This document shows positions 499-28,364 of a stretch of 64,000 bases of DNA, one piece after another. Position numbers and translations under genes: made by a program. Where the stretch lies: assembly GCF_003054265.1 (NCBI RefSeq), contig NZ_QBKT01000008.1, positions 1-64,000 of the forward strand, given 5' to 3'. Source of the DNA: Kordia periserrulae. GTDB taxonomy: Bacteria; Bacteroidota; Bacteroidia; Flavobacteriales; Flavobacteriaceae. The notes beneath the pieces are model-generated. The model was given only the letters and a program-made list of their open reading frames with translations. It made no database searches and was not told the origin of the DNA. Numbering within the stretch: position 1 is the first letter of the stretch; each line of letters starts with the position of its first letter.

Positions 499-1971
499 TT
501 AATTTTGCAATGAGAGATGCTTTTCGTAATCAAAAAATGAAGGATTTATAGTTGGATTTTGTGCACCTACAGCCATTTTCCACTCTTGAAGCATTTTGAA
601 AAGTCGATTGGTTATTTCTTTGTTTTGAGAACTCAAATTATGGGTTTCTCCCATATCCTGACTCAAATCGTACAACTCTAATTCGTTGGTTTCAAGATTA
701 TGAATCAACTTATACTGATTGAAACGTATGGCACTGTGAGGAACCGCTCCTTCTGTGTGATAGTGTGGATAATGCCAAAATAACGGTCGTGATGCCATGT
801 CCTTTTGATTTAGTAATATAGAAGCCAATGAAACGCCGTCTGTTTCTGGTAGATTCTTTTTAGGAATATTTGCTATATCTAATAGTGTGGGTAAAAAATC
901 AACTGAAATTGTAGGTGTATGTTCTATGGAAGGTTTTATTTTTTCTGGATAATACACAATGGTTGGAACGCGAACGCCGCCTTCATACCTATCGCCTTTT
1001 CCAGATTTTAAAGGAATGTTGGAAGTCACTTTTTCTTTGAATCTTGGATGATTTCCTATAAGTCCACCATTGTCCGATGTGAAAACTATGATGGTATTCT
1101 TTTCTAAATCAAGCTCTTTTAAAGTGGTTAAAATCGTGCCAACGGCTTCATCCATATGTTCTATCATGGCAGCATACGTGGGATTTTTATGATGACTTGT
1201 ACTATCTTGAAGTTGCTTGTATTTATGAACTTTTTCTGCTGTTGCTTGCAAAGGTGTATGCACAGCATACAGCCAATAATTTAGGAAGAATGGTTGGTTT
1301 TTATGCTGCTCAATAAACTGTTTGGCTTCTTGCGCCAATCGATTTGTCAAATACTCTTTTTGAGGTCCATCAGTAAGTCTTGGATTCCCGTAAGGAGCAA
1401 AATATCCATTTTTTCCTTTCTTTTTGTTTTTGAAAGGCTGTCCTCTTGACCATCCTGCAATGTTGACATCGAAACCTTGATTTTCCGGCCAATAAATAGA
1501 GTCTTTTCCTAAATGCCACTTTCCAATATGCGCTGTTTTATAGCCATTGGATTGAAAGATTTTTACCATGGTAACTTCTGAAGTATCCAAGTATTTTTTC
1601 CAGTCAGGAGGTAACAATTTTGTGTTTGGTGCATGTTTCCCTGGAATGAAATCCGTTAATTGGAGTCGAGCAGGATATTTTCCTGTGAGAATACTCGCCC
1701 TAGTAGGAGAACACACGGCACTTGCAGCGTACGCATTGGTGAATTTTACGCCTTCACTCGCTAATTTGTCAATATTGGGCGTTTGGTAGTAGTCTGAGCC
1801 GTATGAACTCAAATCCGTCCAACCTAAGTCATCTACCAAAATGAAAATCACGTTCGGTTTTTCTTTTTTTGAACTGCAAGAGGTGAAAATAAGCAATAAG
1901 AAGACAACAAAATACGCTGCGGATGAAAAGAATATGTTGCTTTTGGAATTAATTTTTCTCAGTTTTTTCAA
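499..1971 (-). CDS. Formylglycine-dependent sulfatase lipoprotein (S1 type), last gene of the locus operon
   Basis: Hydrolyses sulfate esters, here presumably on a galactan. The 490-residue product has a hydrophobic N-terminal segment ending in Cys32 (FTSC), suggesting an outer-membrane or periplasmic lipoprotein. The alkaline-phosphatase-like sulfatase fold starts at PNVIFILVDDLG, with metal ligands Asp47 and Asp48. The formylglycine signature is CSPTR with Cys87, followed by LTGKYPARL. TSDNGG further on supplies the second metal-binding motif. Length is usual for the family. Its start overlaps the end of the preceding sulfatase by 23 bases, which supports co-transcription and translational coupling. 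The maturation enzyme that makes formylglycine is not in this window. The exact sulfate position attacked cannot be read from the sequence. Confidence 0.93.
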   Translation of the reverse strand: MKKLRKINSKSNIFFSSAAYFVVFLLLIFTSCSSKKEKPNVIFILVDDLGWTDLSSYGSDYYQTPNIDKLASEGVKFTNAYAASAVCSPTRASILTGKYPARLQLTDFIPGKHAPNTKLLPPDWKKYLDTSEVTMVKIFQSNGYKTAHIGKWHLGKDSIYWPENQGFDVNIAGWSRGQPFKNKKKGKNGYFAPYGNPRLTDGPQKEYLTNRLAQEAKQFIEQHKNQPFFLNYWLYAVHTPLQATAEKVHKYKQLQDSTSHHKNPTYAAMIEHMDEAVGTILTTLKELDLEKNTIIVFTSDNGGLIGNHPRFKEKVTSNIPLKSGKGDRYEGGVRVPTIVYYPEKIKPSIEHTPTISVDFLPTLLDIANIPKKNLPETDGVSLASILLNQKDMASRPLFWHYPHYHTEGAVPHSAIRFNQYKLIHNLETNELELYDLSQDMGETHNLSSQNKEITNRLFKMLQEWKMAVGAQNPTINPSFFDYEKHLSLQN

Positions 1972-3523
1972 AATCTGTGCTATTAATCCATCCTGATTTT
2001 ACTTTTTCGCCTTTCATATAACGTTCATAAAAGTTGACGTTTCTGTCTGGAGCATAGTTATCGAATATATCACCGTTTCCAAACATTCGTGGGTCTTTTT
2101 GATTTTTTAATTCAGTTTCTAGAATTTTTTTCAACTCTTGTTTGATGCTTTGATATTCCTCTTTTGTGGCTAAATTGTGCATACAGTGCTCATCTACACT
2201 TACTTGAAATAATTCTTCTTCTGGATGCTTTCCAAAATTGAGCTCCCAATATGCTGTATTTTTCCCTTGACGATTTAATTGAAGAATTTCTGTTTTGGTA
2301 GGACTTCCATCAGTATTGGTATAACCTGTTTCAGGATTTCCCGCGGGCCAGCGATCGCTTTTATAGTTGATCAAATACATGAATCCGTCTTTTACAATTC
2401 CACGCACCGGATATCCAACATCATTCGGTCTTCCTACGTCATGACGCTCTTGTCCTAACAAGACATAATCTTTGTCTGGTGAAATGAAATCTTCCTTTTT
2501 AGCATCAAAAAAGGGCACAAAACTTTTTCCCTGAATGGGATTCATTCCTAATTCTTGAGCAGTATATCCTGCAACATCCGCAAAGGTAGCTGCGAAGTCT
2601 ATAAAGCTAACATAGTCTTGAACAACTCTTCCCGGATTCTTGATGCCGTCTTTCCACATTACTGCCAATGGCAAGTGATTTGAATGTTCGTAACTCAATC
2701 CTTTTACCCTTGGAAACGGCATTCCGTTGTCGGAAGTTACTACAATAATGGTATTGTCTAACTCCCCTTTTTCCTCTAGAATTTGTAATATCTTCCCTAA
2801 TTGCTGATCAAAATATTCCAGTTCAAATGCATAATCTAAGACATCATTTTTTACTACGTCTGACTGAGGCCAATACGGAAAAACGGAATCAAGATCAGAG
2901 AGTTTTTTATTTCCCACTCGAACACCTGTACCATACTCGTACTTTCGATGCGGCTCATGTCCACCATACCAAAAATAGAAAGGCGTATCATCGGTTTTGC
3001 TCTCTAGAAAGGTTTTGAAATTCGCTGCGTAATCTACCTTGTTGATTCCTTTGGTAGGAGGCGTTGTTTTGATTTTATTGTATTTCTTTACAATCAATTC
3101 TCGTTTGCTTCCGTCTTCGTTTAGTGCGGTTCCTGGACTCCATCCTTTTCCTGTATACCCTACATGATATCCTTTTTCTGATAAGGCTTCTGGAAGCGTT
3201 TTGAATTTGGTAGGAAAATATGCTAAATGATTGGCAGCTTCCTCTAGTTGCCACGTGTTTCTTCCCGTTAAAACGATGGATCGAGATGGTCCACATTTGG
3301 CATTGGGTGTGTACGCATTTTGAAAGAGTAAGCCTTCGTTTGCCACTCGGTCAAAAGCTGGCGTATTGACAAATGTTGATCCGTAAGCACTCATGTGATT
3401 CCAAGTGGCATCATCCGCAATGCAAAACAATATGTTTGGTGGTGCTTTTTTTTGATTCTCCTCAGTCGTTGCACAAAATGATAAGAGAATTATCGCACTG
3501 ATTCCTATAAAGACTTTTTTCAT
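1949..3523 (-). CDS. Formylglycine-dependent sulfatase (S1 type), probable lipoprotein
   Basis: Second sulfatase of the operon, 524 residues. The N-terminal hydrophobic stretch ends at Cys17 (LLSFC), a loose Bacteroidota lipobox, so it is probably lipidated. Sulfatase features are NILFCIADD with Asp37/Asp38, the formylglycine signature CGPSR (Cys77) followed by IVLTGRN, and VVTSDNGMPF as the second metal site. It is clearly diverged from its two neighbours: it has GPSR rather than SPTR or SPSR, and a long C-terminal part with YAPDRNVNFYERYMKG. It resembles heparan/N-sulfoglucosamine-type sulfatases in general organisation, but a different sulfate position on the same galactan is the simplest reading of its context. 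Confidence 0.92.
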   Translation of the reverse strand: MKKVFIGISAIILLSFCATTEENQKKAPPNILFCIADDATWNHMSAYGSTFVNTPAFDRVANEGLLFQNAYTPNAKCGPSRSIVLTGRNTWQLEEAANHLAYFPTKFKTLPEALSEKGYHVGYTGKGWSPGTALNEDGSKRELIVKKYNKIKTTPPTKGINKVDYAANFKTFLESKTDDTPFYFWYGGHEPHRKYEYGTGVRVGNKKLSDLDSVFPYWPQSDVVKNDVLDYAFELEYFDQQLGKILQILEEKGELDNTIIVVTSDNGMPFPRVKGLSYEHSNHLPLAVMWKDGIKNPGRVVQDYVSFIDFAATFADVAGYTAQELGMNPIQGKSFVPFFDAKKEDFISPDKDYVLLGQERHDVGRPNDVGYPVRGIVKDGFMYLINYKSDRWPAGNPETGYTNTDGSPTKTEILQLNRQGKNTAYWELNFGKHPEEELFQVSVDEHCMHNLATKEEYQSIKQELKKILETELKNQKDPRMFGNGDIFDNYAPDRNVNFYERYMKGEKVKSGWINSTDFEKTEKN

Positions 3524-3544
3524 ACACGTTCTTTTTTATCGGTA

Positions 3545-4939
3545 TTATTGTACTCCAGAGTATTTTTCTACACCCATTTTTACTTCCCACTTTTTCAATT
3601 CTTCCACCAATTGGTTGGCGATTTCTGATTCTTCATTGAAGACATCATTTTCTTCTTTGATATCTTTTTTTATGTTGAAGAGTTTTTGAGTACCGCTTCT
3701 GTAGGCTAACAATTTCCAATCGCATTTTCGAACAGAAACATACAAGTCTTCGTAAGCGCGGTAACCGTACACTGGCTCTCGTTCAAGTGTATTATTATTT
3801 CGAATGGTGGACAGTAAAGAGATTCCATCAACTTCTTTATAATCAGAAGGATTTCCTCCAGTCAACTCTACCAAAGTGGAAAAAATATCGGTAGATTGCA
3901 CTACAGAATTGTTCTTTGTATTGGGTTTTGTAACTCCATGCCAATACACAAAGAAAGGAACTCTAGCACCGCCTTCAAAAAGGGTTTCTTTCATTTTTCC
4001 GCCTCTAAAGGGCGCATTTTCAAAATAACCTCCTTGATCTGAAACGAATAGAATCAACGTTTCTTTTTCAATTCCTTTGTCTTTTAATGCTTGTAAAACT
4101 CGCCCAACAGATTCGTCGGTGGCTGCTACCATGGCTGCGTAATGCGCATATTTATCTTCAAGTCCTTTTTTCTTGAAGTGTGCTACCAAATCTTTTCGCC
4201 CTTGATGTGGACTGTGAACAGAGTAGTATGAAAAGGTGAGCATAAACGGATTTTCTTGTTCGTACTTTTCAATAAAATCTACCGCTTCGTTGGTCAATTT
4301 ATCAGTTAAGTACGTGTTATTTTCATCCGTATAATCACCTTTATAACCAAAGTAAGGTGGATAATACGATTTTGGATGTCCCGCATTGGATGTTCCTATT
4401 TGTTGATCAAACCCTTGGTGAATAGGATGATATTTTTCGTGTCCCAAATGCCATTTCCCAACAAACAAGTTGTAATAGCCTGCATCTTTTAGAGCTTCAG
4501 CGTATGTGGTGTGCTCCAATGGCAGCCAGTTTCTGGATGGGAATTGCGCAGGATCTCTCTCCAAGGTGTGAAATTCAATCTCCGTTTCGCCTTCTTTATT
4601 GAAGCCAAATTTTTTACCTCCCGGAATGTGACGAACCATTTGCAATCGGGCAGGATGTTTTCCGGTGAGCAGTGTTGCTCTACTTGGACTACAGGTGGGA
4701 CTGGCAATGTAAGCTTGTTCAAAGCTCATCCCAGCTGCCGCTAGTTGATCAATATTGGGCGTTTCAAAAACAGGATTTCTGAATCCTAAATCTGACCATC
4801 CTAAATCGTCAACAAAGAATAGCACAATATTGGGTTTTGCCTCTTTTGTTGTTTGCGCTTGTTTTTTAGTTGCTTTTCCGCAATTCACACATACAGCAAG
4901 CAGTAGGATACTTAAAATCTTTAGAAGTTGTTTTTTCAT
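3545..4939 (-). CDS. Formylglycine-dependent sulfatase (S1 type), probable lipoprotein
   Basis: Third sulfatase of the minus-strand operon, 464 residues. The signal segment ends near Cys20 (CVNCGK), compatible with lipoprotein processing. The fold starts at PNIVLFFVDDLGWSDL (Asp44/Asp45). The formylglycine signature is CSPSR with Cys83, followed by ATLLTGKHPARLQ. FVSDQGG is the second metal motif, with Gln replacing the Asn usual at that place. Spacing is 21 bases to the next gene and 45 from the preceding beta-helix enzyme, so it is part of the same transcript. It is more like the sulfatase at 499-1971 than the one between them. That suggests two related and one distinct sulfate-ester specificity. 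Confidence 0.93.
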   Translation of the reverse strand: MKKQLLKILSILLLAVCVNCGKATKKQAQTTKEAKPNIVLFFVDDLGWSDLGFRNPVFETPNIDQLAAAGMSFEQAYIASPTCSPSRATLLTGKHPARLQMVRHIPGGKKFGFNKEGETEIEFHTLERDPAQFPSRNWLPLEHTTYAEALKDAGYYNLFVGKWHLGHEKYHPIHQGFDQQIGTSNAGHPKSYYPPYFGYKGDYTDENNTYLTDKLTNEAVDFIEKYEQENPFMLTFSYYSVHSPHQGRKDLVAHFKKKGLEDKYAHYAAMVAATDESVGRVLQALKDKGIEKETLILFVSDQGGYFENAPFRGGKMKETLFEGGARVPFFVYWHGVTKPNTKNNSVVQSTDIFSTLVELTGGNPSDYKEVDGISLLSTIRNNNTLEREPVYGYRAYEDLYVSVRKCDWKLLAYRSGTQKLFNIKKDIKEENDVFNEESEIANQLVEELKKWEVKMGVEKYSGVQ

Positions 4940-4984
4940 TGTATGGAATGGAATCTCTTTTGTTATGTCAAATGACAGATAAGA

Positions 4985-6745
4985 TTATTTTTCAAAGATC
5001 AAGTTTGTATTGTTATTTTCGTATAGAATTTCATGTTCTTTCGATTGATCTTTGGAGTTTCTCAAAAACTTGTTTCCTTTAATCACGGTATTTGTTGAAG
5101 ATTCTACAGACAGTGCTCTTTTATTATAAGAAAAAATATTATTGGTGATTTGAATATTATTCAAGCCTTGCCAATCTGCCGTAGCTACACCATTCCACTT
5201 AGTATCAGCATCGGGATTCTTCAATTTGACTACGCGCATTTGAATGGTTGCAAAATCCTTATTTGTCAAATAGGTTTCATCGTAGCCACAATTATTGAAA
5301 ATATTCTGATTGATGACAATATTATGCGCAATGAAACCTTCTCCCCAATCTACTCCATTGATTAAAGTGATGGCACTTTGAGATAAGTTTTCAAACACAT
5401 TTTTTTCAATCAAACCATGAGAGGCTTGAATTAAGATTCCATATCGCCGCGCATTGCGAAAGGTGTTGTTTTTTATCACAAAGGATTCATTGGATTCATT
5501 GTCCATATAGGCAATATCCGCTTTTTTGGTATCTCCGACTTTTAAGTTTTCTGGGAGCGGTTTGTCTACCGTGATTTGCATTTTTGCATCTCCTAAAAAC
5601 GTATTGCTTAACACCTTGTAAGTCCCAAGATACTTTCCTTCTCTCGGATTGTATATTCTCAGCACATCTCCTTTGACAACTTTCCACTTCACAATTAATT
5701 CCGTTGAAGAAATTTGTTTTAAGATGTACCGCTTGGTGTTTTTCATATTGATAGCGTCATCGCTGTAGCCTTCAAATAAGGAGTTTTCTATCCAAGGTCC
5801 AAATTTACCGCCATTTACATGCATACAATCTGCGTTGGCACTATGAAGTCTGCCTTCTTTTAGTTTTACTTCACATCCGATAATGTTCCATTCTTCCATA
5901 TTTACCGCAGCGTAACTTCCAGCAGGACTGGTATAACTTGTATTGTTTAAATAGGTAATATTTTTACTTGCATTGGATTTGAAAATGGTACTTCCGTTGT
6001 TTCGAGCCACGTGTACATACAAATCGCCTACTTCCATAAATTTTAATAATCGAGCTCCTTTCATTTTGATTCGGAAAGTTCCTGGTTTTAGTTCTTCAAA
6101 ATCTTTGGACGCGTAATAATTGGGCGCGCCATCTTTTAATTTTCCTGGAATTTTTGGATCCATCAACATTCCCCAAACTCGGTTGGCTTTTTGAAACATG
6201 TCGTGATTTAGGCTTGGAAAACCTTCCTCTATTTGAAAGTCGAATGTTTTTTTATTTACATCAACAGCGACAATTTTTCCTTGCGTAAAAGGTAACGGAT
6301 CGTAATCAATTACTAAGTTTTTAACAATGATGTTTTCGCTTTTGAAGATTGAGAAAAAGCCTTTTAGTGGATTATGAACAATGATTTCAGAACCATTTCC
6401 GTCAATAATGATGTTGCTGGCGTTTTTGAGTTCAATTAAATGAAATCGGTTTTTCCCTGAAAAAAGATCATAGCGTCCTTTGAAGAATGACAATCGTACG
6501 CCTGTTCCTGTTTTCGAAACCTTTTTACAAAAATCCAAAGCTTTTCTAAACGCTGCTCCGTCGTCTTTTCCATCGTTTGGAATGGCACCAAAATCTGTTA
6601 ATTTTACATCAATAGTTGTGGGAAAGTCAAGTAACGGAAGATTTCTTTGGGTTCTAAAGTGTTCTGGCAAACTAAACTCATATTGCGCATTCAGCTGACT
6701 GCAACATATCAGGGCTACGAGTAAGAATCTAACTGTATTTTTCAT
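4985..6745 (-). CDS. Secreted right-handed parallel beta-helix enzyme, GH110-like alpha-galactosidase candidate
   Basis: A 586-residue protein with a signal peptide (cleavage near LNAQYEF) and many short Asn-rich beta-helix turns such as NNTFRNARRYGILIQ. It shares with the neighbouring GH110-type proteins an acidic signature: Asp306 in NADCMH, then FEGYSDDAIN with Asp329 and Asp330. The 23/24-residue spacing is the same in all three proteins of this operon. GH110 enzymes are inverting exo-alpha-1,3-galactosidases, so removal of terminal alpha-1,3-galactose is the best guess. There is no T9SS tail, so it is probably periplasmic, unlike its longer homologue immediately upstream. The two share most of their N-terminal 580 residues in pattern. 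Substrate is inferred, not shown. Confidence 0.75.
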   Translation of the reverse strand: MKNTVRFLLVALICCSQLNAQYEFSLPEHFRTQRNLPLLDFPTTIDVKLTDFGAIPNDGKDDGAAFRKALDFCKKVSKTGTGVRLSFFKGRYDLFSGKNRFHLIELKNASNIIIDGNGSEIIVHNPLKGFFSIFKSENIIVKNLVIDYDPLPFTQGKIVAVDVNKKTFDFQIEEGFPSLNHDMFQKANRVWGMLMDPKIPGKLKDGAPNYYASKDFEELKPGTFRIKMKGARLLKFMEVGDLYVHVARNNGSTIFKSNASKNITYLNNTSYTSPAGSYAAVNMEEWNIIGCEVKLKEGRLHSANADCMHVNGGKFGPWIENSLFEGYSDDAINMKNTKRYILKQISSTELIVKWKVVKGDVLRIYNPREGKYLGTYKVLSNTFLGDAKMQITVDKPLPENLKVGDTKKADIAYMDNESNESFVIKNNTFRNARRYGILIQASHGLIEKNVFENLSQSAITLINGVDWGEGFIAHNIVINQNIFNNCGYDETYLTNKDFATIQMRVVKLKNPDADTKWNGVATADWQGLNNIQITNNIFSYNKRALSVESSTNTVIKGNKFLRNSKDQSKEHEILYENNNTNLIFEK

Positions 6746-6748
6746 CTT

Positions 6749-9430
6749 TTAATTTTTAAAGAATTTGGTAGTTTGATGGTCATTGATCCTTATCAGATAC
6801 AACCCTGACGAAAGACTAGAAATATCTAATTCTTTCAATCTGACCTTGTTTTTTGAGATTAAAGTCTTACCCAAAAGATTGACGATACGAATGGTATGTA
6901 CTTCTTTGTCAAAATAAATGGTGTTGGAAGCCATGGTTGGATATACCTTAATTGTATTGTCCGCTGTAGAAAGTTCATCCTTAACAGATAATGTAATTTG
7001 TCGATCATTGTAGACACTTTCTATTTGCGATCCACATAATTTATAATCAAAATAACGAATATCACTCGCAACACCCGTATAGTTTGGGAAGAATCTTAGT
7101 GCACTACTACCCGTTTTTACAAAAACATCCTCTCCTTGATGATATTCTTCGGAAGCGACGCCATTTTTATACATTTGAGTTGTAAATAAGGTATTATTTT
7201 CGGGAATTGTAATGGCAATGTGATTCCATTGTCCAATGTCCAAAGGCAAATCGTCCATTCTGACAAAATTCCCTCTAGTATCCGTAACTCTTACTCTTCT
7301 GTTCGACTGCATTTGAATGGCTAATATTTCACCATCTTCAGATCCAGTACCACTAAACATGAATGTTTGAAAAATTTCTTGAGAGGGTTTTACCCAAAAG
7401 GAATAGGTTCTTGCAGCTCCTTGAAGAGGTCCCGGGAATGGTGAACTATTACTTGTATTTATAAAACTGATGTCACCATTATTATTTGTATTGATATTAA
7501 AACTATACCCTATGTCTCCGTCAACATGTCCTTGCGTAATGGTTCCACCTGAGGTATTGATTTGCAATCCCACATCTTGATTTGTTCCTGAATTCACTAT
7601 TTGCATGGCGCTCGGTGGTTCATTTAAAATAAATTGAATATTGGCGTCAGGAGTTGCTATTTGAGAAGGAACGTTACTGACATTCGTACTATTTAAGATG
7701 ACTTCATCTTCGGGCATTTGACCACTTTGTAGTGTAATATCTTCTTCTCTGTGACAAATGAAATTGTTGTCGAGCGTTAATCCTTCGATATTTTTAAGGT
7801 ACATACCTCTTTTGTTGTACAAAATTGTATTGTCTATGATTCTGATATTGCTATGCGCTCTGTAATTTGTGGTTTCTGTTCCACAGAAGCCTCCATTGGG
7901 CGTACAAGGTGTAGCTACTTTTGCAAAGTCTACCGAAATAGCCGCAGAATTTCCTTCTTCTATGTAATTTTTGTCGTAGCCACAATTTTCAAATCTGTTG
8001 TTGCGAATTTCTATTTCATGCGCTCTAAACCCTTCCGTCCAGTCAACGCCATTCTCAATGCGTATTCCGGCACCACTTAAATTTTGAAATAGGTTATTTT
8101 CAATGAGCGCATACTTACTTTGAATCAAAATTCCGTATCGCCTAGAGTTTCGAACAATATTATTTCTAAAGATAAAAGATTCATTACTTCTACTTTCCAA
8201 ATACGCTTTGTCTGCCAATTGATCGTCCTCTGGGTTTATGGTGGTTATATTGACAGCTTCAGAAAGTGTCAATCGAAATAGATTTCCGCCTTGTGCAACT
8301 ACATTTGTGATGGTTGCCGTTCCTATCAATACACCATCTCTAGGGTTGTAGAATTCCATTTTTTCACCCACATTCACTGGACTTTGAACGGTGATTTCGG
8401 TAGAACTGTGAATTGTTTTGATGGCTCTTCTGGCATACTTAATGTTCATAAAATCATCCGAAAATCCTTCAAAAGAACAGTTTTCAACCCAAGGTCCAAT
8501 AAAATTACCGTTGGTATGCATAGCGTCTGCATTGACACTATGTACTCTGCCTTCTTTCAGCTTTATATGACAATTGATGACATTCCATTCTTCACAATTT
8601 CTGGAGTTGAATCCTCCTGAAGCACTCGCATAGCCCGTAATATTCATGTAGGTTACATTTTTACCTTCATTGTTTCTAATCAATGTGGATCCGTTATACC
8701 GTCCGATGTGAACAAAATAATCTCCTACTGCTGCATTTTGTAATGTATTGGCGTTTTGGGCTCCATATCGGTACGTTCTAGTTCCTATTAATTCAAAAAA
8801 CTGATTGTGTGGAATTAAATTCTTCGTTCCTTCTTTGATTCCTCCTTTAGAATTTTTAAACATTCCCCATCGTTGTGGAGCGTTCATAAAGGAAGCTGTG
8901 GTAGGCACCGGAGAAAAATCATCTAGCTGAAATTCAAAATAACCATCAACAAGGTTAATATTCGTTACGATTCCTTGCGAAAAAGGAAGCGTAGCATGAT
9001 CTATAGAAAAATCTTGTAAAATGGTATTTTCACAACGTAGCAGCGCTAAAAAACCAACTGTTGGATTGTGTATAAGAAATTCTGCATTTTGTCCGTCCCA
9101 AAGCAATCCGTTTACATCTCTAAGTTCTATGGCATGGGTAAATGAACCACTATACATAATATCGTATGTACCGCTTTCAAATACCAAACGAACAGGGTTT
9201 TGTGCTGTTGCAATGTTTTTGGCAGCATCTAGCGCATTGTTAATTGCAATAAGATCATCATTACCATCATTGACAACAGCACCATAATCTGAGACATTGA
9301 TTGTAGAAGTCGTATTTAAACTGACCAATGGCATAGCTCTCTGTGTTCTAAAAAAAGAAGGTACAGGTGCAAATTGAGCATATCCCTCAATGGTTACTAA
9401 GAATAGAAAAATAAATATACTCCTTTTCAT
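6749..9430 (-). CDS. T9SS-secreted GH110-like beta-helix enzyme with LamG-like domain
   Basis: An 893-residue, three-part protein. Residues about 20-580 form a parallel beta-helix related to the gene downstream, with the shared acidic signature Asp302 (NADAMH) and Asp325/Asp326 (FEGFSDDFMN). Residues about 620-800 form a concanavalin-like (LamG) sandwich, seen in GPLQGAARTYSFWVKPS and DIGQWNHIAITIPE, which may bind carbohydrate. The last 75 residues are a T9SS type A sorting domain ending in LRINDHQTTKFFKN-like text (SSGLYLIRINDH). This version is therefore likely exported to the cell surface, while the shorter homologue stays in the periplasm. Only three bases separate the two genes. Alternative: a lyase or other beta-helix hydrolase. 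The conserved acidic residues favour GH110-type chemistry. Confidence 0.75.
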   Translation of the reverse strand: MKRSIFIFLFLVTIEGYAQFAPVPSFFRTQRAMPLVSLNTTSTINVSDYGAVVNDGNDDLIAINNALDAAKNIATAQNPVRLVFESGTYDIMYSGSFTHAIELRDVNGLLWDGQNAEFLIHNPTVGFLALLRCENTILQDFSIDHATLPFSQGIVTNINLVDGYFEFQLDDFSPVPTTASFMNAPQRWGMFKNSKGGIKEGTKNLIPHNQFFELIGTRTYRYGAQNANTLQNAAVGDYFVHIGRYNGSTLIRNNEGKNVTYMNITGYASASGGFNSRNCEEWNVINCHIKLKEGRVHSVNADAMHTNGNFIGPWVENCSFEGFSDDFMNIKYARRAIKTIHSSTEITVQSPVNVGEKMEFYNPRDGVLIGTATITNVVAQGGNLFRLTLSEAVNITTINPEDDQLADKAYLESRSNESFIFRNNIVRNSRRYGILIQSKYALIENNLFQNLSGAGIRIENGVDWTEGFRAHEIEIRNNRFENCGYDKNYIEEGNSAAISVDFAKVATPCTPNGGFCGTETTNYRAHSNIRIIDNTILYNKRGMYLKNIEGLTLDNNFICHREEDITLQSGQMPEDEVILNSTNVSNVPSQIATPDANIQFILNEPPSAMQIVNSGTNQDVGLQINTSGGTITQGHVDGDIGYSFNINTNNNGDISFINTSNSSPFPGPLQGAARTYSFWVKPSQEIFQTFMFSGTGSEDGEILAIQMQSNRRVRVTDTRGNFVRMDDLPLDIGQWNHIAITIPENNTLFTTQMYKNGVASEEYHQGEDVFVKTGSSALRFFPNYTGVASDIRYFDYKLCGSQIESVYNDRQITLSVKDELSTADNTIKVYPTMASNTIYFDKEVHTIRIVNLLGKTLISKNKVRLKELDISSLSSGLYLIRINDHQTTKFFKN

Positions 9431-12409: not shown

Positions 12410-12413
12410 AATC

Positions 12414-20800: not shown

Positions 20801-21853
20801 TCACAACTAGACAAAAAGAAAATATTCCAGCGACATTTCCATGGAAAAGAACGATCTTCCTCCGGAATTGGTCTGCATCTTGCGGCAACGCTTATTGAAG
20901 CGCACAAAGGAGAAATCAATGTACTCAACAGTGCCTTAGGAGGAACTGAGTTCATGATTACCTTGCCTGTATCGTCCAAAGCTTTTGATGAAAATGAGTA
21001 TTTGACAAAAGAAGACATTCCTAAATATTTACCACATGATTACGTGCCAGGAGAAATCGTTCAAGAAATTGATATTGAAAATGATACAAATAAAGAAAAA
21101 ATCTTAATTGTTGAAGACGATTACGATTTGAGAAAATACCTGTTCAACACACTCAGCACCGAATACATCGTTCTTGAGGCTGCTAATGGTGCGGAAGGGT
21201 TGCAATGTGCAGAAAAAGAAATTCCAGACATCATTGTCTCTGACGTAATGATGCCAGAAATGGACGGAATTGAAATGTGTAAAAAAATTAAGAAAAATAA
21301 ATCCATCTCTCATATTCCAGTATTGATGCTTACGGCAAAAACAGGAGATGAATTCTATAACAAAGGATTAAAAGTAGGTGCTTGGGATTACATTGCAAAA
21401 CCCTTTGATAGTTCACATTTGGTTCAAAAAATCAAAAATATCATTGATACTCGAAATAATTTCCGTGATATTTTGGCAAATGGAAGTCCAACCAAAGCAA
21501 AAAGCCATTATGTGTCTTACGATCAAAAATTTGTGAAAAATGTACGCGAAATTGTACTCAATCGAATTTCGAATCCTGCTTTCAGTGTTGAAGATTTGTC
21601 GGCAGAATTAGGACTCAGTAGAATGCAATTGCATCGAAAATTAAAATCCTTAATCGGACTGAATACAACCGCATTCATCAATACCATAAAAATTGAAAAA
21701 GCCATTGAAATGTTTGATAACGGCTGTGATCGGGTTCAAGAAGCCATGGATTCTGTAGGAATTAATAGTTATGCTCATTTCAATTCTTTATTCAAAAAAG
21801 AAAAAGGAATCACGCCAAGTAAATACATCGAACAAACCAAAAAACCTGTTTAA
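17882..21853 (+). CDS. Hybrid two-component system sensor/regulator (HTCS) of the galactan locus
   Basis: A single 1323-residue protein that senses a glycan signal in the periplasm and regulates DNA. The order is: signal peptide (about 1-20); two seven-bladed propellers of Reg_prop repeats (DGLSQHDVSSILQDSEGFIWIG and later copies); a Y_Y_Y domain (about 690-755); one membrane helix (about 761-787); HisKA with phospho-acceptor His820 (VAHEFKTPLSLV); the HATPase domain (NLLSNAFKYTPKGG, GIGLHLA); a receiver domain with Asp1121 (VSDVMMPEMDG); and an AraC-type helix-turn-helix (about 1215-1315). All catalytic residues are present. It is the first gene of the plus operon, opposite the SusCD operon, and is the obvious activator of both. 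The inducing sugar is likely a released oligosaccharide. Confidence 0.97.
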   Translation: MYKNALSFCISLMVVSLHWGQQMQFNALTVEDGLSQHDVSSILQDSEGFIWIGTYDGLNRFDGYDIKTFIHDNNNQESLSSNRIRSLFEDNQKRIWIGTDGYGLNYYSLYNGNFTRIETPDNYHIINDIAKKSDSVITVATSQGLLKVTDTNNKPFVEIAQTPLTGLNVKKICVLHDKSVLYATNRGIWQYRDNKYKLIENSVDISFNWITETQHGDIWVGGSSGLYELLGKTLIARDDLLNATILSMVEANENDLWISTFDQGLFHLNLNNRTISKIKASNALHQNTLESNSLQYLFKDATNTLWVSNKKGVLYSNLDNKSFKNLPIAKKGHVRTLFATNEHVYYGLQSDQYYLYSLKDKTNKPIVLPNNAKSFRVDTLNGNIHLATTKGLYKEKKPGTGTFELVPVFGDRKKDESIIFTSFRADKYGNQFFGTFVGLIYKNQNNTGWIHEKFKNLESLRNIRIFSLKSDDHLNCLWVGTISKGLFKINFDTSGNIISAENYSEQMTGAYKIPNNSIWCFFQDAKGALYVGTDTGLLVRKPNENQFESILVEDIQNKKIMGIVEDEYGNLWLNNSRGIIRFNPQKNTTQKYNHFDGLVANTFTEAISKNENHQLFFGSISGINYLESAKLQNNLFSSSVAFTNLLVDNSDIQVGEALLGSVILDKTLNNTKKIKLNHKQNDFTIEFTSTNYSNVRTNKYRYKLIGYEKDWRVVDNDKRYASYSNLPSGTYELLVAATNPDGKWSEESKSIIITINPAPWNTWWAYLIYVLCFLSILAAFIYFWFNKQKLRSQIELSNLKSEQEKEINELKLIFFTDVAHEFKTPLSLVIGPLNDLTKGEVSKEHKEFCYNIISRNTSRMMHLVNQLLDFRKVNSGVNILKVSRNDMISFVKEIAKSFEWQAKNSNIKFNIISPESYFCHFDKDIVEKVIYNLLSNAFKYTPKGGQIEIEIKPTWKQELEYFVILIKDSGKGISQLDKKKIFQRHFHGKERSSSGIGLHLAATLIEAHKGEINVLNSALGGTEFMITLPVSSKAFDENEYLTKEDIPKYLPHDYVPGEIVQEIDIENDTNKEKILIVEDDYDLRKYLFNTLSTEYIVLEAANGAEGLQCAEKEIPDIIVSDVMMPEMDGIEMCKKIKKNKSISHIPVLMLTAKTGDEFYNKGLKVGAWDYIAKPFDSSHLVQKIKNIIDTRNNFRDILANGSPTKAKSHYVSYDQKFVKNVREIVLNRISNPAFSVEDLSAELGLSRMQLHRKLKSLIGLNTTAFINTIKIEKAIEMFDNGCDRVQEAMDSVGINSYAHFNSLFKKEKGITPSKYIEQTKKPV

Positions 21854-21869: not shown

Positions 21870-23420
21870 ATGAAAAATATTTATTCACTCTTCATTATAC
21901 TCTTCTTGATTTCATGTCAAACGCAAAAGAAGCAAGAAAAAAATCTTGAAAAAAAAGAAAGCAAACCCAATATTGTCATCCTATATTTGGATGATTTGGG
22001 TTACGGCGATTTAAGTGCGTATGGAGCTACAGAACTCAACACTCCTAACATTGACAAACTAGCCGAAGGAGGTATCAAATTCACCAATGGATATGCTTCC
22101 TCTGCTACCTGTACTCCTAGCCGATATGCCTTATTAACAGGAATGTATCCTTGGAGAAATAAAAAAGCAAAAATTTTACCCGGAACCGCACCACTTTTAA
22201 TTTCCACAGCGCAAAAAACCTTACCAAAGATTCTGAAAAAACAAGGCTACCAAACGGCTGTGGTCGGAAAATGGCATCTCGGTTTGGGAACTGGCGTTGT
22301 GGATTGGAATCAAAAAGTGAGTCCAGGACCTAATGAAGTAGGTTTTGATGAAAGCTATATCATGGCGGCTACTCAAGATAGAGTACCTACCGTTTATATT
22401 CAAAATGGCGATGTAGTCGGATTGGACAAAAATGATCCGATTCAAGTGGATTACAAAAATAATTTTGAAGGAGAACCGACCGCAATCACAAACCCTGAAA
22501 TGTTAACTATGAAATGGCATCACGGTCATAACAGTAGCATCGTGAATGGAATTCCTAGAATTGGCTATATGAAAGGTGGCGAAAACGCTAAGTGGGTAGA
22601 CACAAACATGGCAGATCATTTTCTTGAAAAAGCGCAAGACTATGTCAAATCTCACAAAAAAAATCCTTTCTTTTTGTACTACGCCATGCAGCAACCGCAC
22701 GTTCCAAGAACACCACATCCAAGATTTGTGGGTACGTCGGGTATGGGACCAAGAGGCGATGTAATTCTGGAAGCCGATTGGGTAATTGGTGAATTCATAA
22801 AAACGCTAGAAGAAGAAGGAATTCTAGAAAATACTTTGATTGTATTCTCAAGCGACAACGGACCTGTGCTGAATGACGGGTATTACGATGATGCGGTTGA
22901 AAAAATTGGGAATCACGATCAAAATGGAGGTCTTAGAGGAGGAAAATACAGCATTTTTGAAGCGGGCTCAAGAGTTCCGTTCATTACCTATTGGAAAGGA
23001 AAAATCACTCCCAAAGTTTCTGATGCCATTGTATGCCAAATGGATTTATTATCCTCATTAGCCGATTTAACAGGAACATCAGCAACGGACACTGATAGTC
23101 AGAATTTGTTGTCTGCCTTTTTAGGCGAATCAGAAAAAGGAAGAGAAAACTTAATCATTGAAGCCACTGGAAAAACAGCATTAAGAAGAGGCGATTGGTT
23201 GTACATTCCAGCTTATGAAGGAAAGAACTTTAGAGAAGAAGTAGGCATCGAAGTGGGGAATTTTCCGTTTGAACAATTGTATAATTTGAAAGATGATAAA
23301 TCTCAAAAAAACAATCTGGCAGATACACATCCTGAAAAATTAGACGAGTTAAAAGCAATTTTTCTAAAGCTCCGAGGAGAAGACTATACCAAAGGAGTGA
23401 AAGAAGTTGTATTTCAATAA
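21870..23420 (+). CDS. Formylglycine-dependent sulfatase lipoprotein (S1 type)
   Basis: Fourth sulfatase of the locus, 516 residues. I chose the start at 21870 because it gives a proper lipoprotein signal (FLISC, Cys16), whereas the longer frame overlaps the sensor gene and has a charged start. Features are NIVILYLDDLGYGDL (Asp41/Asp42), the formylglycine signature CTPSR (Cys81) followed by YALLTGMYPWR, GKWHLG, FSSDNGPV, and a C-terminal half with LRGGKYSIFEAGSRVPF. It belongs to the arylsulfatase A-like branch and is distinct from the three sulfatases on the other strand. It starts 16 bases after the regulator gene, so it is probably co-transcribed with it and with the sugar importer downstream. 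Confidence 0.94.
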   Translation: MKNIYSLFIILFLISCQTQKKQEKNLEKKESKPNIVILYLDDLGYGDLSAYGATELNTPNIDKLAEGGIKFTNGYASSATCTPSRYALLTGMYPWRNKKAKILPGTAPLLISTAQKTLPKILKKQGYQTAVVGKWHLGLGTGVVDWNQKVSPGPNEVGFDESYIMAATQDRVPTVYIQNGDVVGLDKNDPIQVDYKNNFEGEPTAITNPEMLTMKWHHGHNSSIVNGIPRIGYMKGGENAKWVDTNMADHFLEKAQDYVKSHKKNPFFLYYAMQQPHVPRTPHPRFVGTSGMGPRGDVILEADWVIGEFIKTLEEEGILENTLIVFSSDNGPVLNDGYYDDAVEKIGNHDQNGGLRGGKYSIFEAGSRVPFITYWKGKITPKVSDAIVCQMDLLSSLADLTGTSATDTDSQNLLSAFLGESEKGRENLIIEATGKTALRRGDWLYIPAYEGKNFREEVGIEVGNFPFEQLYNLKDDKSQKNNLADTHPEKLDELKAIFLKLRGEDYTKGVKEVVFQ

Positions 23421-23490
23421 TAAATATAGAAAGCAGCGTGACAAGAACATACAAAAAATCCATTAACTTTTAGTCAAACACTAGTCAACC

Positions 23491-25140
23491 ATGATTCAAA
23501 TTTTAGCATTTATAGGCTTTACAGCTTTAGTAGCAATTATATCCTACTACAAAACAAGAAATACAAAAGAGTCTACTTCAGATGGATATTTTCTAGGCGG
23601 AAGAAGCCTAACCGCTGGGGTAATTGCGGGGTCACTTTTACTTACCAACTTATCTACGGAACAAATTGTGGGATTAAACGGTTCTGCCTATTCAAGTGGT
23701 TTATCAGTAATGGTCTGGGAAACATTGGCAGCTATTGCCATGGTCGCTACTGCCCTATTCTTATTACCCAGATATCTCAAAGATGGACTCACCACAGTTC
23801 CTGGTTTTTTAGCCAAACGATTTGATGTGACCACAAAAACCTTAACCTCAGGATTGTTCCTAACTGGCTATGTAGTGGTTTTATTGCCTATTATTTTATA
23901 CTCGGGTTCCTTAGCAATCAGCGGTATGTTTGATGTGCCAAAATTGTTAGGTGTAACACACACGCAATCTATTTGGATTTGCGTTTGGGGTATTGGAATC
24001 ATTGGTTCAATATACGCTGTTTTTGGTGGATTGAAAGCTGTAGCGGTTTCAGATTCTATCAACGCCATCGGATTGTTGATTGGGGGAATTTTAATTCCAA
24101 TTTTCGGACTGATGCTCATCGGCGATGGTAGTATCTTGGACGGTCTTTCCACACTTACTTCTGAAAATCCTGAGAAATTCAAATCCATGGGAAGCGAAAC
24201 GGATCCAGTTCCCTTTCATACCATCTTTACAGGAATGATGCTGGTGCAGCTCTTTTATTGGGGAACCAATCAACAAATCATTCAAAGAGCGTTGGGAGCT
24301 AAAAATTTAAAAGAAGGGCAAAAAGGGTTGTTGCTCGCTTCTTTTATAAAGATTTTGGGACCTATCATCGTCGTCTTACCCGGATTGATTGCATTTCATG
24401 TATTTCAAGATAATTTAGAAACGGCAGATAGCGCCTATCCGATGCTCGTAAAAAAAGTACTCCCAACTGCATGGGTAGGTTTCTTTGCCGCAGTTTTGTT
24501 TGGAGCTATTTTGAGTTCCTTCAACAGTGTGCTGAACAGTTCGGTAACCTTGTTCGGAATTGACATCTACAAACAGCACATCAACAAAAATGCTGACCAA
24601 AAAACAGTCGTTAAATATGGGAAACTATTCGGTATTGCGTTGGCAATCGCTTCTATGTTCGTCGCTCCTTTAATCGCGAATGCAGGAAGTTTATTTGACT
24701 ATCTTCAAGAAATTAATGGAATTTACAGCATTCCCATATTAACCATTATTGTGGTTGGGTATCTTACTAAGAGAGTTCCTGCCATTGCCGCCAAAGTAGG
24801 TTTGGTTTCCGGATGTTTGTTGTACATCATTAGCCAGTTTATCATGCAACCGTATTTTATCAATAAAGCCTTAGCTGCTGCCAAAGCTTCAGGAATTACC
24901 GATGAAGCTGCGCTGAAATTAGTAAAAGTAGGTGCCTATCCTCATTTTCTAGATGTGATGGCAATTTTATTTGTATTGAATGCTGCCATTATGCTCATCA
25001 TTGGAAAAATAAAACCCCGAAAAACGGACTATGTGCAGAAGTATACACAACAAGTAGATATTACACCTTGGAAATATGCTGTGCAAGCGGGTGTTATCAT
25101 TTGTCTTATGGTCATCGGAGTTTACTACTATTTTGCCTAA
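23491..25140 (+). CDS. Sodium/sugar symporter of the SSS family (vSGLT-like)
   Basis: A 549-residue inner-membrane protein with about 14 predicted helices. The start YFLGGRSLTAGVIAGSLLLTNLSTEQIVGLNG and later YWGTNQQIIQRALGAKN follow the Vibrio sodium/galactose transporter pattern (there: YFLAGKSL, NISAEQFIGMSG, YYWGFNQYIIQR). Solute:sodium symporters use the sodium gradient to bring in sugars. Its place one gene before galactokinase (two-base gap) makes galactose the best substrate guess. Start and length fit the family. The 70-base gap after the sulfatase could hold an internal promoter, but none is clear. Confidence 0.93.
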   Translation: MIQILAFIGFTALVAIISYYKTRNTKESTSDGYFLGGRSLTAGVIAGSLLLTNLSTEQIVGLNGSAYSSGLSVMVWETLAAIAMVATALFLLPRYLKDGLTTVPGFLAKRFDVTTKTLTSGLFLTGYVVVLLPIILYSGSLAISGMFDVPKLLGVTHTQSIWICVWGIGIIGSIYAVFGGLKAVAVSDSINAIGLLIGGILIPIFGLMLIGDGSILDGLSTLTSENPEKFKSMGSETDPVPFHTIFTGMMLVQLFYWGTNQQIIQRALGAKNLKEGQKGLLLASFIKILGPIIVVLPGLIAFHVFQDNLETADSAYPMLVKKVLPTAWVGFFAAVLFGAILSSFNSVLNSSVTLFGIDIYKQHINKNADQKTVVKYGKLFGIALAIASMFVAPLIANAGSLFDYLQEINGIYSIPILTIIVVGYLTKRVPAIAAKVGLVSGCLLYIISQFIMQPYFINKALAAAKASGITDEAALKLVKVGAYPHFLDVMAILFVLNAAIMLIIGKIKPRKTDYVQKYTQQVDITPWKYAVQAGVIICLMVIGVYYYFA

Positions 25141-25142
25141 TC

Positions 25143-26288
25143 ATGGATACTGCACTCATTAGCAAACTAAAGAATAGTTTTCAAGTCGAATTTCAATTGG
25201 AACCTTTATTGATTTTTTCTCCTGGCAGAATCAATCTCATTGGCGAACATGTAGATTATAACGACGGATTTGTATTTCCTGCCGCTGTGAATAAAGGAAT
25301 TGTACTCGCCATTCAAAAAACAGACGACCTTTTGTGTACCGCAATTGCTTCTGATTTTGAAGAATCCTTTCAGTTTAATCTTAATGAGCTAGAAGCCATT
25401 CACGGTGGCGGCTGGAGAAACTATCTCATTGGAGTCATCAAAGAACTGCAAAAGTTGGGAAAAGACGTTCAACCTTTTCATGTCTTGTTTGGAGGAAATG
25501 TTCCTGCAGGAGCTGGAATGTCATCTTCAGCAGCGTTAGAAAATGCCATTGTTTTCGGACTGAATGAACTCTTTCAATTTGAATTGACCAAGAAAGAAAT
25601 GGCACTCATCTCACAGCAAGCAGAACATAATTACGTAGGCGTAAAATGCGGCATTATGGATCAGTTTGCAAGCATGTTTGGAGAAGCCGATAAGTTTCTA
25701 TTACTCGATTGCAGAAGCTTAACATACGAGCCCTACAAGATAGATTTGAATGATTACGACTTGGTTTTAATCAACACAAACGTACAGCACAACCTATCGG
25801 ATAGCACCTATAACAAACGAAGAGCTTTGTGCGAAAGAGCGGCTTTGCATTTCGGAGAAAAAGCGTTACGAGATGTATCTAAAGAACATCTCTATCAAAA
25901 ACAACACGATTTTACCAAAGAAGAATTCGACATGATTTTATATATCGTCGAAGAAATAGAACGAACCAAAAGTGCCGCAAAAGCCATCAACGAAAATAAT
26001 ATTGAACGTTTAGGACAATTGCTCTATGAATCACATCATGGCTTATCCAAACAATATCAAGTCAGTTGTGACGAACTTGATTTTCTCATAGACTTTGCAA
26101 AAGCTTCCAACGTGGTCATTGGAGCTCGAATGATGGGCGGAGGTTTTGGTGGCTGTACACTAAACTTAATTAAAAAAACAGCTGTGAGCAGTTTTATTGA
26201 ATCTGTTTCAAATGCATACCAAGAGCAATTTGGCTATAACTGCACACCCATCAACATTAAACTATCAAAAGGAACCCATACGATTTAA
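25143..26288 (+). CDS. galK: Galactokinase
   Basis: Phosphorylates galactose to galactose-1-phosphate, first step of the Leloir pathway, in the cytoplasm. The 381-residue product has the signature PGRINLIGEHVDYNDGF, the GHMP ATP-binding motif GNVPAGAGMSSSAALE, the catalytic region CGIMDQFASMFG and the C-terminal GARMMGGGFGGC. I chose the ATG at 25143, two bases after the transporter stop; the longer frame into the transporter gene adds nothing family-like. Together with galT and galE it shows that free galactose is the end product of the upstream hydrolases. Confidence 0.98.
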   Translation: MDTALISKLKNSFQVEFQLEPLLIFSPGRINLIGEHVDYNDGFVFPAAVNKGIVLAIQKTDDLLCTAIASDFEESFQFNLNELEAIHGGGWRNYLIGVIKELQKLGKDVQPFHVLFGGNVPAGAGMSSSAALENAIVFGLNELFQFELTKKEMALISQQAEHNYVGVKCGIMDQFASMFGEADKFLLLDCRSLTYEPYKIDLNDYDLVLINTNVQHNLSDSTYNKRRALCERAALHFGEKALRDVSKEHLYQKQHDFTKEEFDMILYIVEEIERTKSAAKAINENNIERLGQLLYESHHGLSKQYQVSCDELDFLIDFAKASNVVIGARMMGGGFGGCTLNLIKKTAVSSFIESVSNAYQEQFGYNCTPINIKLSKGTHTI

Positions 26289-26295
26289 CTCAATT

Positions 26296-27312
26296 ATGAA
26301 TCTTCAAGAATACTCTCACAAACGATACAACATTTTAACCCAAGAATGGGTGTTGGTTTCTCCGCATCGATCCAAAAGACCTTGGCAAGGGCAGCAAGAA
26401 AAAGTAGTTCGAGAAAAAAGACCTACGCACGATTCTAATTGTTATTTATGTGCCGGAAATACCAGAGCAAATGGCGAAAAAAATCCCAATTACAAAGACG
26501 TGTTTGTTTTCAACAATGATTTTGCCGCTTTACAAAAAGAATCTCCAGACTTTTCTGAAGAAGACGGACTTCTTGTTGCACAATCTGAAAGAGGAATTTG
26601 TCGCGTGATTTGTTTTAGTCCAGATCATTCTAAGAGTTTGGCGGATATGAATCCTGATGACATCACCAAAGTTGTAAAAGCTTGGAAAACAGAATATCAA
26701 ACTTTAGGAGAACATGACTTCATCAACTATGTTCAAATTTTTGAAAACAAAGGATCAGTTATGGGTTGTAGCAATCCACATCCACACGGACAAATATGGA
26801 GTCAATCTACACTACCCAACGAAGTAGCTAAAAAAGATAAATCTCAAAAACAGTACTTCGACAAAAACAAGCGTTCACTCTTACTCGATTACTTGAAGCA
26901 AGAGCAAGCTAAAAAGGAGAGAATTATTTTTGAGAATGATACATTTGTTGTATTGGTTCCCTTTTGGGCAGTTTGGCCTTATGAAACCATGATTGTCCCC
27001 AAACAGCATTTACAACACATCGGTTTATTAAATGAAACTCAAGAATACTTGTTTGCAGAGGCTATTTCAAAAATTACGAGTGCTTACGACCAAATTTTTG
27101 ATACTTCATTTCCGTATTCAGCAGGAATTCACCAAGCACCTACCAACGGAAAAGAAAATACCCATTGGCATTTTCACATGAGTTTTTATCCTCCACTATT
27201 GCGAAGCGCCACTGTAAAAAAGTTTATGGTTGGCTACGAAATGTTTGGTTCACCACAAAGAGATATCACAGCTGAGCAGGCTGTACAACGAATAAAAGAA
27301 GTCATGTCATGA
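26296..27312 (+). CDS. galT: Galactose-1-phosphate uridylyltransferase
   Basis: Exchanges UDP-glucose and galactose-1-phosphate to make UDP-galactose and glucose-1-phosphate. The 338-residue product has the zinc-site start CYLCAGN with HSKSLADM, the active-site triad NPHPHGQIW (second His is the nucleophile) and the C-terminal THWHFHMSFYPP metal site. The start at 26296 (MNLQEYSHKRYN) lies seven bases after galK and agrees with family length; the longer frame runs into galK. It overlaps galE by four bases (ATGA), typical of translational coupling. Confidence 0.98.
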   Translation: MNLQEYSHKRYNILTQEWVLVSPHRSKRPWQGQQEKVVREKRPTHDSNCYLCAGNTRANGEKNPNYKDVFVFNNDFAALQKESPDFSEEDGLLVAQSERGICRVICFSPDHSKSLADMNPDDITKVVKAWKTEYQTLGEHDFINYVQIFENKGSVMGCSNPHPHGQIWSQSTLPNEVAKKDKSQKQYFDKNKRSLLLDYLKQEQAKKERIIFENDTFVVLVPFWAVWPYETMIVPKQHLQHIGLLNETQEYLFAEAISKITSAYDQIFDTSFPYSAGIHQAPTNGKENTHWHFHMSFYPPLLRSATVKKFMVGYEMFGSPQRDITAEQAVQRIKEVMS

Positions 27313-28364
27313 ATAAAAAAGTGATTGTTACTGGAGGATGTGGTTATATTGGTTCACATACCGTTGTAGAGCTCATTGAAAATGGATTTGAAACGGTGGT
27401 TTTTGACAATCTTTCTAACTCTAAAGAATTCATTTTAGACCGTATTCAACAAATTACAGGAGTCAAACCTCAGTTTGAAAAGGTGGATTTGGCTAATGCA
27501 GAAGCATCAGACAAAGCCTATCAAAAACATGCGGATGCCATTGCCATCATTAATTTTGCAGCGTATAAAGCTGTTGGTGAATCGGTTCAAAAACCCATGA
27601 TGTATTACAAAAACAATCTGTATGCATTGATCAATTCCATAGAAGCGCAGCAAAAATATGGTATATATCATTTCATTTTTTCCTCTTCAGCAACAGTTTA
27701 TGGCGAACCTGATATATTGCCTATTACGGAAATGAATCAGATTAAAAGGCCCTTTTCACCCTATGGAAATACCAAAAAGATTGCCGAAGAAATTTTAGAA
27801 GATTTTAGCAAATCAAATGAAGCCTTTAAAGTAGTATCGCTCCGATATTTCAATCCCATTGGCGCACATAATAGTGGATTAATTGGAGAGCTTCCCAACG
27901 GCATTCCTAACAATCTCTTACCTTACATCACGCAATGTGCCGCTGGTGTTTTAAAGGAATTACAAGTGTTTGGTGACGATTACAACACCAAAGACGGAAC
28001 CGCCATTCGAGATTATATTCATGTAGTTGACCTAGCAAAAGCTCATGTACAATCTTTAGAACGATTGCTTGCCAACAAAGAAGAAGCTAACTTTGAAGTA
28101 TTCAATTTGGGTACAGGTAACGGATTTACAGTGTTGGATATTATCAAAACATTCGAGAAAGTTGCTAAGGTAAACTTAAACTATAAAATTGTAGACAGAA
28201 GAGCTGGAGATGTAGAAGCTTTATATGCCGAAACGCAACAAGCTGCAGAAAAACTAGCATGGAGCGCAACATTGAATTTGGAAGATATGATTCGGTCATC
28301 ATGGAATTGGGAACAATCCATACGTGATATAACAGATAAAACTTCTGGAGAAGCTAAGAGATAA
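27309..28364 (+). CDS. galE: UDP-glucose 4-epimerase
   Basis: Interconverts UDP-galactose and UDP-glucose with bound NAD, completing the Leloir pathway. The 351-residue short-chain dehydrogenase-like protein has GGCGYIGSHT for NAD binding, SSSATVYG with the catalytic Ser/Thr, and the YxxxK pair in SPYGNTKK. It also shows SLRYFNPIGAH, typical of GalE, and DYIHVVDLAKAH. Length is normal. It is the last gene of the plus operon and starts inside the galT stop. Confidence 0.97.
   Translation: MNKKVIVTGGCGYIGSHTVVELIENGFETVVFDNLSNSKEFILDRIQQITGVKPQFEKVDLANAEASDKAYQKHADAIAIINFAAYKAVGESVQKPMMYYKNNLYALINSIEAQQKYGIYHFIFSSSATVYGEPDILPITEMNQIKRPFSPYGNTKKIAEEILEDFSKSNEAFKVVSLRYFNPIGAHNSGLIGELPNGIPNNLLPYITQCAAGVLKELQVFGDDYNTKDGTAIRDYIHVVDLAKAHVQSLERLLANKEEANFEVFNLGTGNGFTVLDIIKTFEKVAKVNLNYKIVDRRAGDVEALYAETQQAAEKLAWSATLNLEDMIRSSWNWEQSIRDITDKTSGEAKR

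Follow-up and report, generated by a model that had tools for sequence, protein, structure and literature searches.

The window analysed here comprises bases 1-64000 of contig C8 of Kordia periserrulae, whose 4.73 Mb genome is assembled in 38 contigs. Between positions 499 and 28364 it carries fifteen genes, nine on the minus strand and six on the plus strand, that form a polysaccharide utilization locus (PUL); at its centre lie two beta-helix proteins, here called like1 and like2, which are related to glycoside hydrolase family GH110 and depart from it at the active site. The open reading frame (ORF) coordinates agree with the layout and gaps given in a preliminary description of this stretch, with minus-strand intergenic gaps of -23, 21, 45, 3, 16, 17, 4 and 38 bases and plus-strand gaps of 16, 70, 2, 7 and -4 bases, the latter given the likely internal ATG starts of the sulfatase, galK and galT genes. 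Moreover, Pfam and NCBIfam scans back the SusC and SusD proteins, the four sulfatases, the hybrid sensor, the SSF symporter, the galactokinase, GalT and GalE, as that description had proposed, and its full Leloir pathway is borne out, since galK, galT and galE all match family models. The adjacent susC and susD genes are accompanied by a regulator and glycan-active enzymes, as is usual for a SusCD-type PUL. The locus is a real and mostly familiar PUL with an unfamiliar enzyme pair at its centre.

The minus strand encodes three S1 sulfatases (499..1971, 1949..3523 and 3545..4939), like1 (4985..6745, 586 amino acids (aa), with a signal-peptide-like start), like2 (6749..9430, 893 aa), a 439-aa protein with a type IX secretion system (T9SS) domain and no other recognised family (9447..10766), a SusD-like outer-membrane protein (10784..12409), a SusC-like TonB-dependent transporter (12414..15440) and a predicted GH110 alpha-1,3-galactosidase (15479..17362). 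On the plus strand lie a hybrid two-component sensor with Reg_prop, HisKA, receiver and AraC-type HTH domains (17882..21853), an S1_15-type sulfatase (21870..23420, the listed ORF beginning at 21771), an SSF sodium:solute symporter (23491..25140; NF007790, 785 bits), galK (25143..26288), galT (26296..27312) and galE (27309..28364). A signal-like N-terminal stretch, judged by eye, is present on all nine minus-strand proteins and on the plus-strand sulfatase. The structural model of the 439-aa protein had a predicted local distance difference test score (pLDDT) of 46.4, and its fold was set aside.

The protein encoded at 15479-17362 scored 356.7 bits against PdGH110A (9beh) and 306.1 bits against PdGH110B, and both GLAA-B beta-barrel domains (I and II) were matched in it by Pfam. 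In the residue alignment it keeps the full catalytic and -1 subsite set, namely N85, R265, D321, D344, D345, N348, R453, W486 and E488 (numbered here and below after PdGH110B; the Pseudoalteromonas carrageenovora GH110, PcB, gives the same numbers), with a threonine where GH110A has R460 and GH110B has E480. Judged by its sequence, this enzyme is a true GH110, in full agreement with 7jw4, 9beh and other members of the family.

The GH110 matches of the other two beta-helix proteins are remote, the best scoring 96 bits for like1 and 72.5 bits for like2, and Pfam found no GLAA-B domain in either, although a sub-threshold remnant is possible. We compared residues over 30 rows, comprising seven like rows, 21 GH110 rows and the remoter L009 and L010, which match like1 at 26% and 28%, are devoid of the catalytic set and were excluded from the tree. 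D321, D344, D345, N348, R451, W486 and E488 are retained in all seven like rows, the catalytic Asp triad of GH110 corresponding to Asp306, Asp329 and Asp330 in like1 and to Asp302, Asp325 and Asp326 in like2. In the same seven rows, however, the N85 loop is gone, R265 is replaced by N, H350 by K and R453 by Y (Tyr435 in like1), whereas the GH110 rows carry N85 and R453 in 21/21 cases, R265 and H350 in 20/21 and R451 in 18/21. The -1 subsite, which the available text of PMC7939477 calls remarkably conserved across GH110, is thus not conserved in like1 and like2. In PdGH110B, contacts to the C3-, C4- and C6-OH groups are made by N85, E488, N348 and E480, those to C2- and C3-OH by R265, and those to C6-OH and the ring oxygen by R453 (PMC7939477). 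Residue 480 of like1 and like2 was dropped as evidence, because two alignments place different residues there.

A tree of 28 rows places the seven like rows together (support 100/100), on a branch whose length is 1.64 changes per column. The tree program warned that this branch joins the long row L014, which leaves the position of the root uncertain. For like1, the AlphaFold2 model (residues 2-586; the alignments used for like1 omit the first Met) reached a mean pLDDT of 77.9 and a predicted template modelling score of 0.80. When structures were ranked against it, GH110 chains took places 1-15 (E 2.4e-28 to 4.8e-24), followed by GH28 (2.5e-8), with the reservation that the alignment behind the model includes the window's true GH110 and may have pulled it towards that family. 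The seven-row like profile matched nine GH110 sequences (best 3e-33), GH87 (1e-4) and GH82 (0.002, over about 70 positions). On the strength of the model ranking and of the profile, a polysaccharide-lyase reading was rejected for like1, and the outcome that the preliminary description had named as fatal to it, namely beta-helix enzymes that turn out to be such lyases, did not occur. Its count of three GH110-like enzymes stands for 15479-17362, whereas like1 and like2, which have the catalytic residues and (in the like1 model) the fold in common with GH110, form a clade of their own in which the -1 subsite is altered. A search of the open-licence literature yielded no published account of the like clade or of the locus. 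Two beta-helix proteins of haloarchaeal plasmids (L063:11821-13698 and L064:11749-14103) match like1 at 28.1% and 26.5%; they share the loop loss, N265, R451 and the Asp triad, are devoid of N348 and E488, and have annotated neighbours that are not sugar genes.

The loss of the N85 loop, R265 and R453, with the acid, the base and the Trp platform kept, could mean either an opened cleft, suited to endo action, or room for sulfates, suited to exo action on sulfated ends, and the sequence alone may accommodate both modes. To the possibility that like1 and like2 are exo-alpha-galactosidases for sulfated termini (e.g., 2,6-disulfated galactose), with the chain cutter located beyond the contig edge or elsewhere, we give somewhat less than even weight. 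The loss of R265 (C2-/C3-OH) and R453 (C6-OH) could indeed create space for sulfates, 6-sulfated residues are already tolerated by GH110A (PMC12549532), and the window stops at a contig edge; however, LamG and T9SS domains such as those of like2 would be unusual for a periplasmic exo-enzyme, the loop that goes missing in 7/7 rows lies next to C3-/C4-OH, and the endo-lambda-carrageenase GH150 was not found in the three module-bearing genomes. Because like2 carries Laminin_G_3 and T9SS sorting domains, it is probably extracellular and likelier than like1 to come into contact with the polymer there. The earlier claim that this locus works by exo-enzymes only is therefore not established, as two of the three enzymes fall in the changed-subsite clade and one of these probably acts outside the cell. 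A bolder proposal, which we regard as rather unlikely, is that like2 (and like1) constitute a new GH family with its origin in the GH110 fold. It would be an endo-carrageenase for lambda- or mu/nu-type chains that cuts the alpha-1,3 bond and replaces GH150 where that enzyme is lacking.

The distribution of the pair was examined at several levels. like1 was matched in 19 of 299 family genomes (E 1e-10); close copies lie beside like2 in K. periserrulae itself, in Gaetbulibacter saemankumensis (Flavobacteriaceae; G155) and in G219, and the matches in the other 16 genomes are at 25-30%. When 84,980 species genomes were scanned with a pattern, an approach that detects close relatives only, two loci were returned, one in a metagenome-assembled genome (MAG, 77%) and one in Gaetbulibacter (67%). 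Within the genus (11 genomes), the like clade was found only in K. periserrulae, and the congener G662 has two ordinary GH110s. We read a stretch of 59.5 kb in each of G155 and G219, where the relatives of the window's proteins reach 67-69% for like1, 61% for like2, 64-65% for the 439-aa protein, 58-59% for GH110, 47-48% for SusC, 52-55% for SusD, 40% for the sensor, 75-76% for the 1949 sulfatase, 52-53% for the 3545 sulfatase (74% in the MAG) and 71-76% for the S1_15 enzyme. The 439-aa protein adjoins like2 in both genomes too; among 395 genomes of the order besides its own, it has no full-length relative, with one 144-residue match (34%) in G425. On the 5-kb MAG contig, like2, like1 and the 3545 sulfatase follow in the same order as in the window. 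The core module thus appears to be conserved but rare. No close copy of the 499 sulfatase, no symporter and no galKTE occur in the 59.5-kb stretches of G155 and G219; since they are missing there and a 68% relative of the symporter lies in another cluster of the K. periserrulae genome, the symporter and galKTE stand outside the conserved core. Beside the related loci we also observed two proteins without a Pfam match, L031:7241-9283 (G155, 680 aa) and L032:8643-10739 (G219, 698 aa), which are 57% identical and may be candidate glycan enzymes.

All four sulfatases carry the C-x-P-[ST]-R motif of the cysteine type, and four FGE-type matches were found in the K. periserrulae genome. The plus-strand enzyme (21870-23420) scored 687 bits against 7ozc and 490-500 bits against two lambda-pathway S1_15 structures, and is at 46-48% to two P. 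carrageenovora S1_15 enzymes. For both 499-1971 and 3545-4939, the nearest solved relative is the kappa-carrageenan S1_16 sulfatase 9fo1 (444.6 and 261.8 bits, respectively). The remaining enzyme, 1949-3523, lies outside any clear subfamily, with weak similarity to S1_11 and S1_8 structures; its best matches in the PDB are of the S1_11 type, S1_8A coming fifth. The pattern of mu/nu-carrageenan is G4S and D6S, and a set of two S1_16-type (probably 4-O) and one S1_15-type (6-O) sulfatases would suit it as well as it suits lambda-carrageenan. AMOR_S1_16A is keyworded as a 4-O-sulfatase (PMC11760155). Together with the true GH110, the S1_15 and S1_16-type sulfatases support the sulfated galactan with alpha-1,3-galactose that had been proposed as the substrate.

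Few known polysaccharides are as highly sulfated as lambda-carrageenan. According to the available text of PMC12549532, its full degradation pathway, which was not described until 2025 (for Pseudoalteromonas), uses GH150, S1_8, S1_15, GH110A (acting on 6-sulfated galactose, with R460), GH110B and GH2. The locus studied here has the GH110 and S1_15 enzymes expected of a lambda-carrageenan PUL, and shares these, galK and a sodium/sugar symporter with the locus of Pseudoalteromonas distincta U2A and P. carrageenovora (PMC12549532, PMC6262041; plasmid NZ_CP027525.1). It differs in possessing SusCD, a hybrid sensor and S1_16-type sulfatases, whereas GH150 and a full GH2 were not found in the K. periserrulae genome, nor a clear S1_8 in the window. 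The GH110A-type enzyme of Pseudoalteromonas has counterparts in G155 and G219, where a second GH110, at 57-59% to that of P. carrageenovora, keeps R460, the arginine of the 6-sulfate pocket. Among the P. carrageenovora proteins compared, like1, like2 and the 439-aa protein found only remote GH110 similarity.

Within the genus, a cluster of G662 (C1:5370000-5429500) encodes a GH150 at 47% to CglA, a GH110A-type enzyme (54%), an S1_8 relative (46%), a GH2 and an S1_15 sulfatase. It shares with the K. periserrulae locus the S1_15 enzyme (78%), an S1_16-like sulfatase (48% to 3545-4939), a GH110 (36%), SusCD and a hybrid sensor, and differs from it by GH150, the GH110A-type enzyme, S1_8 relatives and GH2, while like1 and like2 are missing. 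In G129, one stretch of 59.5 kb holds a GH110A-type enzyme (58%), an S1_8 relative (43%) and a relative of the 1949 sulfatase (47%). GH110 homologues are also mentioned in ruminant carrageenan loci (PMC13168452). Near the carrageenan-type clusters of G219 and G662 we noted 540-aa proteins (L032:15203-16825 and L054:15149-16771, respectively); that of G662 has a Pfam T9SS domain, and that of G219 has no Pfam match and, by eye, a T9SS-like end.

We searched K. periserrulae, G155 and G219 for further carrageenan enzymes. A two-row GH150 profile found none in K. periserrulae or G219 and gave E 0.08 in G155, while the control plasmid gave two; the GH150 expected of a lambda-carrageenan PUL was thus not found, with the reservation that the locus lies at a contig edge. 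GH35 was found in 0/3 genomes. No GH2 lies in the locus, and the genome of K. periserrulae has only one 40-bit match to the GH2 TIM domain, with no other GH2 domain, beside two GH16 genes; G155 and G219 have six and three GH2 matches, all outside the stretches read. By Pfam, GH16 does not occur in the window, its two genes lying in another cluster of the genome. The racemase of the anhydrogalactose route (mandelate-racemase step), searched with one P. carrageenovora query at E 1e-5, was found in 0/3 genomes while the control was positive, and for this reason kappa/iota use is disfavoured. A locus for kappa/iota or hybrid carrageenan, in which like1 and like2 would be exo- or endo-hydrolases of anhydrogalactosides, seems very unlikely to us, even if the closest S1_16 enzyme of solved structure is active on kappa oligomers (PMC11760155), the contacts lost by like1 and like2 are to C3-/C6-OH, groups absent from anhydrogalactose, and the GH82 touched by the like profile is an iota-carrageenase family. 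Besides the missing racemase, the separate location of the GH16 genes speaks against such a locus, as does the encoded catabolism, which is that of galactose and not of anhydrogalactose. Hence, of the carrageenan-type substrate suggested earlier, the kinship with carrageenan loci holds and the kappa/iota forms are disfavoured.

The lack of a beta-galactosidase in K. periserrulae, in the families searched, would also fit a different sulfated glycan in which alpha-1,3-galactose is abundant and beta-galactose links are few or absent, and for which GH110, like1 and like2 would suffice. All three glycosidases of the locus are of the GH110 or clan GH-N type, in which the enzymes known so far act on alpha bonds (PMC7939477). 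However, carrageenan is indicated by the sulfatases and by the additional GH110 that the relatives carry, and the beta-galactosidase search left out GH42 and others. We know of no common alga with a sulfated alpha-1,3-galactose polymer of this kind, and hold this explanation to be distinctly improbable, if somewhat less so than kappa/iota use.

We therefore favour, as probable, a PUL for a sulfated galactan that contains alpha-1,3-linked D-galactose and hardly any or no 3,6-anhydrogalactose. The most likely polymer is a red-algal carrageenan, either of the lambda type or of the mu/nu precursor type, and its chains are perhaps cut by the GH110-related like pair. Several points weigh against this. 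Carrageenan contains beta-1,4 bonds, which have no assigned enzyme here, given that GH150, GH35 and a full GH2 were not found (GH42, GH82 and others were not searched). The best S1_8 candidate in the window, 1949-3523, is at only 24% to the P. carrageenovora S1_8 enzymes and matches S1_11 structures better. In addition, the symporter and galKTE do not accompany the core in the relatives, and the contig edge leaves the left end of the locus open.

For a lambda- or mu/nu-type carrageenan, the hybrid sensor would detect an oligosaccharide, and the polymer would be shortened by extracellular like2, which has a LamG and a T9SS domain, perhaps in concert with the 439-aa surface protein. SusC and SusD would then import the pieces, from which the sulfatases would remove sulfate, the S1_15 type acting at 6-O, the S1_16 type probably at 4-O and 1949-3523 perhaps at 2-O, while GH110 and like1 would break alpha linkages. 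The symporter may carry galactose inward, and GalK, GalT and GalE would feed it to glycolysis.

A related question has been raised for Zobellia galactanivorans, which is reported to grow on lambda-carrageenan without GH150 and for which a lambda-carrageenase of unidentified family was predicted (PMC6262041). Its PUL 23 likewise has GH110 and sulfatases and, as far as the available text of that paper goes, no GH150; unlike the locus described here, it is reported to have S1_8 sulfatases. like2 is a candidate for the predicted role. With a Bacteroidota locus in which matching exo-enzymes and sulfatases occur without a detectable GH150, the published question of growth on lambda-carrageenan in the absence of that enzyme (PMC6262041) becomes testable through two named genes. 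If like1 and like2 proved to be ordinary exo-enzymes, the locus would still be a rare variant of carrageenan degradation.

Window position 1 is the contig edge, so that the locus may be truncated on its left. The first 498 bases contain no ORF of at least 150 aa; a TTGGGTG tandem repeat of 20.6 copies (216-359) lies at this edge and may be what interrupted the assembly. Recent import of the locus is not suggested by its base composition (0.370 in the locus, 0.368 in the rest), and values of 0.32-0.33 were obtained in two congener stretches. Neither ARAGORN nor Rfam (gathering threshold) gave a match anywhere in the window.

Elsewhere in the genome, a second SusCD cluster (C3:456265-488022) encodes five sulfatases, GH29, GH3, GH5 and GH10 proteins and the symporter at 68% to that of the window, and a third cluster (C4:480106-500174) encodes three sulfatases, a SusC, a hybrid sensor, an SSF symporter and a T9SS protein. 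Farther along the window lie a tandem pair of DUF3857 genes of nearly equal length (46468-48432 and 48448-50415) and three large MAM and fn3 proteins (37927-41790, 58235-61936 and 62061-63935), two of which have a Pfam T9SS domain.

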